From Gemmatimonadaceae bacterium (GTDB lineage: Bacteria; Gemmatimonadota; Gemmatimonadetes; Gemmatimonadales; Gemmatimonadaceae): 64,000 nt of DNA. A model generated the notes under the pieces. The model saw only the letters and a list, made by a program, of their open reading frames with translations, ran no database searches and was not told the origin of the DNA. The stretch's first letter is position 1; each line of letters opens with the position of its first letter. Positions 39,720-44,678 of this stretch are shown piece by piece. The position numbers and the translations under genes are program-made. The DNA lies in contig JAIEMN010000008.1 in NCBI GenBank assembly GCA_019752115.1, positions 62,001 to 126,000 on the forward strand. Reading direction: 5' to 3'.

Positions 39720-40337
39720 TCAGCCGCCGGCGTAGATGTACCGGCAGCCGCGGTCCTGCGCCTGCTGTAGCGTGACGACCATCGCGGGGACGACCTCGAC
39801 CCCCGGCAGCAGATTCGCCTTGATCTCATCGGCGAAACCGTTGCGCAGCGTCTGGTCGGCCTTCTGAGCCTCGCTCAGAAAGCGCTGCCACGAGGCGCGG
39901 ATCGAGTTGTTGCAGGCGAGGCAGATGACGCCGCGCGAAACGAGCCCCGCGATGGTGGCCGCCTGCGGATTCCTGGCCCCCGGTGCGCCCATGACTTCGC
40001 CGATCGTGGGGTACTTGGCCCAGAGCGCATCGTTGAAGAACCAGCCGATGGAGCGGCCGTTGAGCCCGATCACGACGGTGGACTCGGCGTCGCTCAGACC
40101 GTAGGTGGTCTTCTGCGTGTCGAGGAAGGTTTGCCCCCACCGCACCGCCTGCCCGTCGGTGGGCATGTGCGAATGGAAGAGCACCTTCTGCTTGCCGGTG
40201 AGCCGCTTCATCCAGGGCTCGTCACCCGGTTGCGGGCGATCAACCGATTCCGCGTGCGCGGTCGTGCTGCCAAGGCCGAGCGCAGCTCCGAGCGTGGCGA
40301 GCCGCGAGAGAAAGGTGCGACGATCGTTCGAGCTCAT
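39720..40337 (-). CDS. Tat-exported DsrE-like protein
   Basis: A 205-residue protein with a twin-arginine signal (SSNDRRTFLSRLATLGAALGLGSTTAHA, shown here in pieces: RRTFL then a hydrophobic run and an AHA cleavage site near residue 29). The mature part has VVIGLNGRSIGWFFNDALW and GVICLACNNSIRA, resembling DsrE-fold proteins found beside sulfur or cytochrome genes. The likely functional Cys lies in CLACNN. Tat export suggests folding or cofactor binding before export. It overlaps the TsdA-like gene by ATGA. A sulfur-handling role is inferred from the neighbour and fold only. Confidence 0.65.
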   Translation of the reverse strand: MSSNDRRTFLSRLATLGAALGLGSTTAHAESVDRPQPGDEPWMKRLTGKQKVLFHSHMPTDGQAVRWGQTFLDTQKTTYGLSDAESTVVIGLNGRSIGWFFNDALWAKYPTIGEVMGAPGARNPQAATIAGLVSRGVICLACNNSIRASWQRFLSEAQKADQTLRNGFADEIKANLLPGVEVVPAMVVTLQQAQDRGCRYIYAGG

Positions 40338-41155
40338 TTGACGAGGGAGTCGGGGGAAATACGCCGCTTGAGCAGCGGCCGTACGGGAGGCAGCGGTTTT
40401 CCGGCGGCGCGGGCCCCATCAGTAGCATACGCGACATCGGCCGGTGCGTCGCCCTTGGGCCAGTCGCGTTCCTTGCCCGGATGATCCTGACGCGCCTGAC
40501 GTAGGACATACGCGGCCACATCGGCGGCCTGTTGATCCGTGAGCGTGATCGTGTGATCGAAGGGCATGTTGTGGCGCACGAACGTGGCGAACGTGTACTG
40601 CCGCGCCATGCCGGCGCCGATCGAAAAGCTCGCCGCGCCCCAGAGGGCGGGACCGGTGGGGAGCCCCTGCCCGTTCGGGCCGTGGCAACGGGCGCACGTC
40701 GCGGTGAACACGCGCCGACCGGCGGTTGCGCGCCCGGCCTGCTTCACCGAGTCCACGCCCGCGGGCCGTGGCGCCGCACGCAATGTCTCGAGGTAGGCCA
40801 CCATGTCGCGCATCTCGCGGCCATGCTCCGGTAGCATCTTGCCCGCCAGGCTGCGCGCAATGCACTCGTTGATGCGCCGCTCGATGGTCTCCTCGTAGCC
40901 CGGCCGGGACCGGTACCGCGGGTAGCGGGCCACGCTGCCGAGCCACGGCATGGCGGTGGCTCGCGTGCCGTTGTCGAGGTGGCAGCTGATGCAGCGGAGG
41001 CCATTGCCGCTGTGGTGCGGCAGGGAGTCGCGAAAATTGGTGAGCAGCGCCAACCCGCGGGCCGCATCGCCGCCACTCGCGGGGGGCGTCAGCTGCGCCC
41101 GCAGTGGCGTGGTACTCGCCAGGAGCATGGAGAGCGCGAGGAGTCGGCGACGCAT
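40334..41155 (-). CDS. TsdA-like diheme c-type cytochrome
   Basis: A periplasmic 273-residue protein with a signal peptide (residues 1-20, cleavage after PLRA) and two heme sites: C55-x2-C58-H59 and C154-x2-C157-H158. Between them YPRYRSRPGYEETIERRINEC matches the thiosulfate dehydrogenase TsdA pattern, including C98, which corresponds to the unusual cysteine heme ligand of that enzyme. Further matches are RSLAGKMLP, SFSIGAGMARQ and NMP. TsdA oxidises thiosulfate to tetrathionate (or the reverse). Substrate is untested; other diheme cytochromes remain possible. Confidence 0.72.
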   Translation of the reverse strand: MRRRLLALSMLLASTTPLRAQLTPPASGGDAARGLALLTNFRDSLPHHSGNGLRCISCHLDNGTRATAMPWLGSVARYPRYRSRPGYEETIERRINECIARSLAGKMLPEHGREMRDMVAYLETLRAAPRPAGVDSVKQAGRATAGRRVFTATCARCHGPNGQGLPTGPALWGAASFSIGAGMARQYTFATFVRHNMPFDHTITLTDQQAADVAAYVLRQARQDHPGKERDWPKGDAPADVAYATDGARAAGKPLPPVRPLLKRRISPDSLVK

Positions 41156-41182: not shown

Positions 41183-41210
41183 ACGGGTGAGATCGTGGGA
41201 TCTCACCCGT
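41183..41210 (-). terminator. Strong hairpin after sdhB
   Basis: A 12-base perfect stem (ACGGGTGAGATC with GATCTCACCCGT) and a GTGG loop, 28 bases after the sdhB stop. It is followed on the minus strand by TTTGCTGTT. It separates sdh from the TsdA-like gene and most likely ends the mdh-sdh transcript. Confidence 0.7.
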
Positions 41211-41237: not shown

Positions 41238-42011
41238 TCAGCCCGAACCGGCAACCGCGCGCGGTTCCTGCCGCCGCGCACTCGCCGCGAGGTAGTCGCG
41301 GTTCATGCGCTTGATCACGTCGATCGAGATCTCCTTCGGGCAGGCTTCCTGGCACTCGCCGGTGAGCGTGCAGTGGCCGAAGCCCTCGAGGTCCATCTGT
41401 TCGACCATGCCGAGCGCGCGCTTGTCCCGCTCCGGCTGGCCCTGCGGCAGGAGGCCGAGGTGCGTGATCTTGGCCCCGGTGAAGAGGGCGGCCGAGGCAT
41501 TCGGGCACGCCGCCACACAGGCGCCGCAGCCGATGCAGGCGGCGGCATCCATCGCCTCTTCCACGACATCCTTGCCGATCAGGATCTCATTGGCGTCGCG
41601 GGCGCCGCCGGTGTTCACCGACACATAGCCGCCCGCCTGGATGATGCGGTCGAAGGCCCCGCGATTCACCACGAGGTCCTTGACGATCGGGAACGGCGAC
41701 GCGCGCCACGGTTCGACCGTGATGATGTCGCCATCCTTGAAGGCGCGCATGTGCAACTGGCAGGTGGCCGCGCCCTTCCACGGCCCGTGCGCCTGCCCGT
41801 TGATCATCATGGCGCAGGAGCCACAGATGCCTTCGCGGCAGTCGTGCGCAAAGGCGACCGGCTCCTTCCCTTCGAGCGTGAGCTTCTCGTTCAGCATGTC
41901 GAACATCTCGAGGAACGACATGTCGGCGCTGACGCCATCCAGATCGTAGGTCTCGAGCTTGCCCGGCGCGCTGCTCGCCGGCTGACGCCACACGTTGAGC
42001 GTGATCTTCAT
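41238..42011 (-). CDS. sdhB: Succinate dehydrogenase iron-sulfur subunit
   Basis: A 257-residue three-cluster subunit that passes electrons from SdhA to the membrane. The 2Fe-2S site is CREGICGSC plus a later Cys, and the two ferredoxin blocks are [12 protein letters not shown] and [12 protein letters not shown]. The sequence is of the class that pairs with a single large cytochrome b subunit. Start ATG shares a base with the sdhA TAA (TAATG). Confidence 0.95.
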
Positions 42012-43924
42012 TACTTGTAGCTCCGCGTGGAGAGGTGCACGTTCTCGTACACCAGCGGTTCCTTGTTGAGAATCGGGGCCTTGCCTTCACCGGCGTACTC
42101 CCACGCGGCGACATACGCGTACTCGTCGTCGTTGCGCTTGGCCTCGCCCTCGTCCTGGTACTCGGTGCGGAAGTGGCCACCGCACGATTCTTCGCGATGC
42201 AGCGCGTCGCGGCACATGAGCTCACCGAGCTCGATGAAGTCGGCCACGCGACCGGCGTTCTCGAGGGCCTGGTTGAGCGAGTCGGCACTGCCCGGCACGT
42301 TCACGTTCTGGCGATACTCGTCCTTGAGCGACTGGATCAGCCCGATGGCCTTCGTGAGCCCCTCCCGGTCGCGCGCCATGCCGCAGTACTCCCACATGAT
42401 CTTCCCCAGCTCCTTGTGGAAGCTGTCGACCGTGCGCTTCCCCTTGATGCTCAGGAACTGCTTCGTCTGCGCCTTGATCGCTTCTTCGGCAGCGCGGAAC
42501 TCGGCGTGGGAATTGTCGACCTTGGCCAGCTTGGTCCCCGCGAGGAAGTCGCCGATCGTGTACGGCAACACGAAGTAGCCGTCGGCGAGCCCCTGCATGA
42601 GCGCCGAGGCGCCCAGACGGTTCGCCCCGTGATCGGAGAAGTTCGCCTCACCGGCAACGTGCAGACCGGGGATGGTGCTCATGAGGTTGTAGTCCACCCA
42701 GAGGCCGCCCATCGTGTAGTGCACGGCCGGGTAGATGCGCATCGGCACTTCGTACGGATTCTCGTCCGTAATGCGCTGATACATGTCGAACAGGTTGCCG
42801 TAGCGCTCGGCGATGGTCGCCTTGCCCAGGCGCTTGATGGCGTCGGCAAAGTCGAGATACACGCCGAGCCCACCCGGGCCCACGCCGCGTCCATCGTCGC
42901 ACGCTTCCTTGGCGGCACGCGACGAGATGTCACGCGGCGCGAGGTTGCCGAAGCTCGGATACTTGCGCTCGAGGTAGTAGTCGCGCTCCGACTCGGGGAT
43001 CTGCGACGGCGGCCGGTTGTCGCCGCGCGCCTTGGGCACCCACACGCGCCCGTCGTTGCGGAGCGACTCCGACATGAGCGTCAGCTTGGACTGATGCTCG
43101 CCGTGCACCGGAATGCACGTCGGATGGATCTGCGTGTAGCACGGGTTCGCAAACGCCGCGCCCTTCTTGTGCGCGCGCCACGACGCCGTGACGTTCGAGT
43201 ACATGGCGTTCGTGCTCAGGTAGAACACGTTGCCGTACCCGCCGGTCGCCAGCACGACGGCATCGGCCGCGTGCGACGAGATCTTGCCCGTGAGCAGATT
43301 GCGCGAGACAATGCCGCGCGCATAGCCGTCCACGAGCACCACATCGAGCATCTCCTCGAAGGTGTACATCTGCACCTTCTTGAGCGCGATCTGGCGCTCG
43401 AGCGCCTGATAGGCGCCAATGAGCAGCTGCTGCCCGGTCTGGCCGCGCGCGTAAAACGTGCGCGACACCTGCGCACCGCCGAACGACCGGTTCGCCAGCA
43501 GGCCGCCGTACTCGCGCGCGAAGGGCACGCCCTGCGCCACGCACTGGTCGATGATGTTCACCGACACCTGCGCGAGGCGATACACGTTCGCCTCACGGGC
43601 GCGGAAGTCGCCGCCCTTGATCGTGTCGTAGAACAGGCGGCGGACCGAGTCGCCGTCGTTCTGATAATTCTTGGCGGCGTTGATGCCGCCCTGCGCGGCG
43701 ATCGAGTGCGCGCGCCGCGGCGAATCGTGGTAGACGAAGCACGACACCTGATAGCCGAGTTCGGCCATCGTGGCGGCCGCCGAGGCACCGGCCAGGCCGG
43801 CGCCGACGACGATGACATGGTGTTTCCGCTTGTTGGCGGGGTTCACCAGCTTCATCGAGAACTTGTGCTGGTCCCACTTCTGCTCGAGGGGACCGCTGGG
43901 GATCTTGGCGTTCAGTTCGAGCAT
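42011..43924 (-). CDS. sdhA: Succinate dehydrogenase flavoprotein subunit
   Basis: A 637-residue FAD subunit that oxidises succinate. The FAD-linked histidine is H73 in [11 protein letters not shown] and the dinucleotide motif is [13 protein letters not shown]. The R-x-x-G substrate loop and GGLWVDYN are present. Length and sequence fit the Bacillus/Wolinella-type enzyme. ATG at 43924 lies one base after the sdhC stop. Confidence 0.95.
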
Positions 43925-43925
43925 G

Positions 43926-44618
43926 TCAGTTGGCCTCCACGGCGGGAACGGAGGCCTCGGGGAAGAGACCAAGGACCGCGGCGACCGGCACGGCCATGAA
44001 GCCGAGCGCCACCACGATCGCGATGACCACGGAGAGCTTGCGCTTGAGCGGCTGCGTGGACGGACGCGCCACACCGAGCGTGCGCGCCACGGCCCACGCG
44101 CCGTGATACAGGTGCAGCCCGAGGAAGCCCACGGCGAGGACGTAGAAGCCCGCCACGAGCGGATTCGCGAGGCCGGTCCGCAGGTTGTTGTACGGATCGA
44201 GATGCACGAACTGCGGGTGCACCGTGCCCAGCGTCATGTGCAGGATGTGAAACACGATGAAGACCACGAGGAGCACGCCGCCCCAGCGCATCGTCTTGGC
44301 CGCGAGCGTGGTGACCTGCGGCTTGCGCACCTGGTACTTCTCAGGGCGCGCCTTGTTGGCAATCATCGTGAGCTGATACGCCGCGACCGCGTGCAGGATG
44401 ACGCTCAGCAGCAGCACGGCGCGCACGGCATACAGCGCGGGCATGCTGATGCGCAGCAGCTGCGCGTAGTGCTGCATCTTGAGCGGGGCATCCGGATAGA
44501 ACATCTGGAGGTTGCCCGCCATGTGGCCGATGACGAAGAGGATGCCGATGATCCCCGTCACGGCCATCACGATCTTCTTGCCGATCGTGCTCTGCCAGAA
44601 CCGAGTGAGACCGAACAT
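43926..44618 (-). CDS. sdhC: Succinate dehydrogenase cytochrome b558-type subunit
   Basis: A 230-residue five-helix membrane anchor, consistent with a diheme single-subunit anchor. Histidines in [22 protein letters not shown] and LHLYHGAW are candidate heme ligands. Diheme anchors work with menaquinone, in keeping with the mqn genes. ATG at 44618 was chosen; a GTG at 44651 would add 11 residues (MTAPVSTSTLP). Confidence 0.9.
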
Positions 44619-44678
44619 AGGTAGGGTTGATGTGGAAACCGGCGCCGTCACCGAGGTGAGGGCGCCGGCTTCGACAGG

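Follow-up and report, generated by a model that had tools for sequence, protein, structure and literature searches.

Two overlapping genes in a Gemmatimonas-like bacterium are predicted to encode TsdA, a diheme cytochrome c, and an exported cysteine protein of the DsrE fold. We propose that they form a two-gene periplasmic thiosulfate/tetrathionate module in which the DsrE-fold partner acts as a carrier or co-catalyst through Cys142, a reading on which our own judgement is evenly balanced. Both genes lie on the minus strand of the window, by which we mean the whole 64,000-nucleotide stretch of DNA that was analysed. The earlier note had described an ATGA-joined pair of open reading frames, and both frames were found exactly in place. 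The features are as follows.

39720..40337, minus strand: dsrE-like, TSD-related gene for a predicted Tat-exported single-domain DsrE-fold protein of 205 aa (TAT signal; profile and fold comparison)
40334..40337, minus strand: ATGA overlap of the tsdA stop codon and the dsrE start codon (ORF coordinates)
40334..41155, minus strand: tsdA-like gene for a predicted exported diheme cytochrome c of 273 aa (two CXXCH motifs, PF21342, PF00034, match to A. vinosum TsdA)
41183..41210, minus strand: 12-bp terminator-like palindromic hairpin between sdhB and tsdA (hairpin search)
41238..44651, minus strand: succinate dehydrogenase genes sdhC-sdhA-sdhB, which keep their place upstream of the pair across the genus (gene order; context)

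By every sequence test applied, the cytochrome encoded at 40334..41155 is TsdA. Its first heme motif (CISCH, residues 55–59) has Cys98 as the predicted sixth ligand, and its second (CARCH, 154–158) has Met197, with Asn196 just before it. The protein scores above the Pfam cut-off for the SoxA-TsdA domain PF21342 (37.1 bits against 27) and for the cytochrome c domain PF00034, and its best matches in the PDB are the A. vinosum TsdA structures 4wqc and 4v2k (E about 1e-34). The TsdA-type cysteine heme ligand that had been proposed at C98 is borne out at the level of sequence: in an ungapped alignment C98, R84, R94 and S102 fall on A. vinosum Cys123, Arg109, Arg119 and Ser127 (precursor numbering), which form or stabilise the Cys-S-thiosulfonate (PMC4423706). 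Among 37 homologues from the fetched loci, C98, M197, R94 and S102 are each kept in all 37 and both CXXCH motifs are invariant; position 84, read by eye, is Arg or Lys among relatives. The heme 2 methionine is strictly conserved in TsdA (PMC5146829). The residue preceding it is Asn in 33 of the 37 homologues and Ala in the other four. This site affects the direction of TsdA, but an Asn to Lys swap failed to convert the enzyme (PMC5146829), and we therefore read no reaction direction from Asn196.

The second protein had been described as Tat-secreted and DsrE-like, with a CLACNN motif. Secretion agrees with its RR-containing TAT signal, which scores over the cut-off of its profile. The DsrE assignment comes from profile and fold comparison and not from Pfam: neither the protein, at E values up to 10, nor the genome has a match to Pfam DsrE (PF02635), and membership of that family was rejected. 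A partner-family profile built from 42 relatives finds two structures of the DsrE superfamily, MTH1491 (E 3e-4) and ST0148 (E 5e-4). An AlphaFold2 model of the partner (mean pLDDT 90.3) matches 2pd2 and 1l1s in the PDB with TM scores of 0.88 and 0.83 by target length, and further matches are DsrE/F-like 3mc3, DsrE 3pnx, 2qs7 and TusC 2d1p_C, so that the predicted fold is DsrE/TusD. The fold thus stood and the CLACNN motif is present, but no relative conserves both of its cysteines. C142 is Cys in 93 of 93 family members and C139 in one, the window protein itself; the conserved feature is therefore one cysteine rather than a CxxC pair, and CLACNN as a redox dithiol was rejected. The gene has no dsrF or dsrH neighbour, and its product is exported, unlike the cytoplasmic three-gene DsrEFH heterohexamer. 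A PHROGs search found nothing.

A more specific relationship than 'DsrE-like' came from NCBIfam NF052225, named 'thiosulfate dehydrogenase', which matches the partner at 2.2e-12 and 46.9 bits. The family cut-off is 300 bits and membership was rejected, but sequence comparison indicates that the partner is a distant homologue of this dehydrogenase, TSD: the same invariant Trp, Trp and Cys align in both families (W42, W106 and C142 here; W71, W139 and C198 in the TSD protein L062). In L063, a full NF052225 member is followed by a solute-binding protein and then DoxDA, which matches the order AFE_0042-0043-0044 in A. ferrooxidans (PMC2754497), and the 25-kDa TSD has been traced to AFE_0042 (PMC6335251). 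From this gene order and the family name, and not from the AFE_0042 sequence, we infer that NF052225 is the AFE_0042-type TSD family. A predicted TSD structure (pLDDT 87.6; the underlying alignment includes rows of the window family) has ST0148 as its best PDB match (E 2e-3, probability 1.00), and the model thus gives TSD a DsrE-like fold. The tsd-sbp-doxDA order is absent from the window. The A. ferrooxidans genome has been described as being without TsdA, and a related protein there is reported to oxidise thiosulfate (PMC6335251).

The pair is conserved well beyond the window. A search of 395 Gemmatimonadota genomes returned a partner homologue in 178 and a match to TsdA or another cytochrome in 275. 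Among the matches listed, the genus has 22 close dsrE orthologues, and 20 of them immediately follow tsdA on the same strand; of the other two, one is 3.4 kb from tsdA and one is on a broken contig. The adjacent pair occurs in at least 54 genomes, of 136 with a TsdA match among the matches listed. Of the refuting conditions named in the earlier note, two were checked and neither held: C98 is kept among relatives, and the two genes are co-conserved. The genus keeps the order mdh-sdhC-sdhA-sdhB-tsdA-dsrE, and the two of its genomes that have no DsrE match also lack the close TsdA (best E 4e-54 and 6e-38). Because the cytochrome matches A. vinosum TsdA so strongly, partner orthologues stand at 60–68% and gene order is conserved, we do not attribute the pair to chance. 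On a tree of 93 rows every member of the window clade (21 rows, support 100/100) is linked to tsdA apart from a single row, which lies at the end of a contig. The tsdA-linked label changes 16 times on this tree, whereas shuffles give 30.4 and none of 500 goes as low, a clustering that is inflated by near-copies among the rows.

We rejected obligate coupling. In a sister genus (L125, L127; G393, G281) a 56–60% TsdA orthologue stands at another locus, with no dsrE there, so the partner is not indispensable to TsdA. Many members of the partner family in Gemmatimonadota, including two unlinked paralogues in this genome, lie away from tsdA, which indicates that the fold family has other uses. Unlinked DsrE-like Tat paralogues adjoin GMC oxidoreductase and multicopper oxidase genes (L054, 4504-6863; L049, 4191-6877), a hint of such other uses. 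One genome has two tandem DsrE-like genes before tsdA, the reverse of the usual order (L055, 4406-6446).

The earlier note had also suggested a link between the pair and the respiratory chain encoded around it. This part of its interpretation is not supported by the analysis; what it said on TsdA identity, the Cys ligand, export, the DsrE-like fold and the coupling of the two genes held. The terminator-like hairpin between sdhB and tsdA suggests that tsdA-dsrE is a separate transcription unit, so that the pair probably does not share a transcript with sdhCAB or the other respiratory genes around it. One such hairpin was found against a mean of 1.0 in shuffles of the whole region, although the shuffled hairpins did not necessarily have a 12-pair stem. 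Comparable strong hairpins occur in three relatives (L003, L005, L012), with none of note in several others. Given these hairpins, we treat the respiratory neighbours as context rather than as demonstrated partners, and the sister-genus tsdA at another locus without dsrE likewise speaks against the tie. A search for a Sox pathway in the genome gave only sub-threshold matches to SoxB, and similar matches were seen in 10 of 14 control genomes.

True TSD genes, scoring 334–421 bits against NF052225 (395–421 bits in Bosea, Bradyrhizobium and Methylobacterium), also lie near tsdA in other phyla. In Bosea, TSD adjoins a TsdB-TsdA fusion. On two Bradyrhizobium plasmids and one Methylobacterium plasmid, TsdB and TsdA are within about 2–5 kb of TSD, and in the last a cbb3-type oxidase follows these genes. 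The order is TSD-SBP-TsdB-TsdA in G1068 and TSD-SBP-YeeE-like-cytochrome/TsdA fusion in G937, where SBP, TsdB and YeeE were named from their sequences without a family search. Overall, TsdA was present within about 5 kb in six of the ten true-TSD loci seen; in L063 the stretch read has DoxDA and no TsdA. DsbD, DsbA, TlpA or thioredoxin genes also occur at true TSD loci, and in G1031 and G1079 TSD and sulfite-oxidase-like genes are at most a few kilobases apart. A molybdopterin sulfite-oxidase-like gene and a small c-type cytochrome were seen near the TSD genes of L083 and L084. One contig, L015, binned as Klebsiella pneumoniae but probably a mis-named or contaminated MAG of doubtful host, has genes for TsdA, a SulP-family permease and a DsrE-like protein. 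The TSD proteins of Alphaproteobacterial plasmids (L059, L058, L129, L130) bear the annotation 'transcriptional initiation protein Tat', a misnomer for the Tat signal, or 'hypothetical protein'; their genes have TsdB, TsdA, Dsb/thioredoxin and solute-binding protein genes as neighbours. The window is therefore one of several places with the pairing, which turns up in both Gemmatimonadota and Pseudomonadota. Searches of open-licence papers that covered TsdA together with DsrE or TsdB, the Gemmatimonadota and the Tat misnomer brought up none on a TsdA/DsrE pairing.

How might the two proteins work together? Sequence is the basis for the TsdA family, its ligands and active-site residues, the DsrE fold, the invariant cysteine, the export signals, co-conservation and the distant homology to TSD. 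In the proposed module, the Cys98/His heme of TsdA would be the site where thiosulfate and tetrathionate are interconverted, with a Cys-S-thiosulfonate as intermediate, and electrons would leave for a cytochrome acceptor by way of heme 2 (His158/Met197). Cys142 of the Tat-exported partner would accept or donate a thiosulfate group as Cys142-S-S-SO3-, exchanging it with TsdA or with tetrathionate. Precedents exist for both cysteines: a thiosulfonate on the ligand cysteine is a published intermediate of TsdA (PMC4423706), and DsrE3A of Metallosphaera forms a Cys-S-thiosulfonate from tetrathionate and then passes it to TusA (PMC4175335). Thiosulfate exchange with the TsdA reaction is the simplest role for a protein that has a DsrE fold and a single invariant cysteine, shares the compartment and is encoded with TsdA. 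Cofactor-free carriage of thiosulfate, physical contact between the proteins, the electron acceptor and the direction of the reaction are what we infer beyond this. Against a carrier, a downstream acceptor would be expected and none was identified, SoxB matches in the genome all falling below threshold. The sister-genus TsdA that stands without dsrE, the many family members away from tsdA and the thiosulfate oxidation reported for a related protein in A. ferrooxidans (PMC6335251) also count against the model. A broader and more tentative idea, which we think possible but somewhat improbable, is that TSD and heme TsdA make up a single recurring system, one half each, in which a Tat-exported carrier swaps covalent thiosulfate with the cysteine ligand of TsdA. 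If true, the system would parallel DsrE/TusA trafficking, but in the periplasm, and would account for the missing electron acceptor of TSD.

The main rival to the carrier model is that the partner oxidises thiosulfate in its own right, as a dehydrogenase of the A. ferrooxidans TSD kind, condensing two thiosulfates at Cys142, with the TsdA-type cytochrome mainly as its electron acceptor. Its homology to NF052225 and the clustering of true TSD genes with TsdB/TsdA cytochromes favour this, as does the report that TSD makes tetrathionate but reduces neither ubiquinone nor horse cytochrome c (PMC6335251); the acceptor of TSD still carries a question mark in a 2024 review (PMC10859504). However, the cytochrome keeps all the catalytic residues of TsdA and is thus unlikely to be a mere electron acceptor, and the match to NF052225 falls far short of its cut-off. 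DsrE folds are also not known to hold a redox cofactor, which counts in the same direction, and we consider this explanation unlikely. The decay of the TsdA thiosulfonate to an S-sulfane on the ligand cysteine (PMC4423706) and the DsbD, DsbA, TlpA or thioredoxin genes at true TSD loci would suit a maintenance factor that strips sulfane or thiosulfonate from the Cys98 heme ligand for repair or assembly, outside turnover; but characterised TsdAs work in vitro without such a protein, and the true TSD of L063 is accompanied by DoxDA while TsdA is absent from the stretch read, making such a role quite improbable. That the two genes are mere neighbours, the DsrE-like proteins of the phylum serving a different role, would fit the many paralogues that adjoin unrelated genes (GMC oxidoreductase, multicopper oxidase, peptidase, metallophosphatase) but is very improbable given the tight same-strand linkage among the matches listed, the clustering of linked rows on the tree and the recurrence of the pairing in Pseudomonadota.

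Compared with known systems, the cytochrome resembles TsdA of A. vinosum and C. jejuni in its two c hemes, SoxA-TsdA domain, Cys ligand, active-site Arg and Ser and conserved heme 2 Met. The residue before this Met is Asn, as in C. jejuni (Asn254-Met255) and unlike A. vinosum (Lys208-Met209; PMC5146829), whose Lys208 gives way to Asn196 here. Unlike known TsdA, it has no tsdB neighbour in the window, and a DsrE-fold gene occupies the next position. The Gemmatimonadota pair shares the TsdA half of TsdB-TsdA systems (for example, the solved cytochrome 5lo9), which TSD adjoins in Bosea and G1068, but is without TsdB in place. The partner shares with TSD/AFE_0042 a Tat signal, a predicted DsrE-like fold and the invariant Trp-Trp-Cys positions, but is only ~20% identical, lies far under the family cut-off, lacks the N-terminal extension and insert of TSD and has no solute-binding protein or doxDA neighbour. 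In fold and conserved Cys it resembles the DsrE/TusD superfamily carriers (ST0148, MTH1491, DsrE, TusC, DsrE3A), with the tetrathionate chemistry of DsrE3A as a mechanistic model by analogy; it differs in being Tat-exported rather than cytoplasmic, in lacking a Pfam DsrE match and in having a cytochrome as its mate, not TusA, DsrF/H or TusB/C.

With this pair a candidate thiosulfate/tetrathionate module is proposed for Gemmatimonadota, a phylum common in soil on whose TsdA the papers we found offer little, and a DsrE-like fold is now assigned, by prediction, to TSD. TSD and TsdA have been described so far as separate, unrelated routes from thiosulfate to tetrathionate. Their recurrence side by side in other phyla suggests that these two 'alternative' enzymes may work together, and since a conserved gene pair holds relatives of both, and Alphaproteobacterial plasmids have true TSD next to TsdB-TsdA, such cooperation is directly and cheaply testable.
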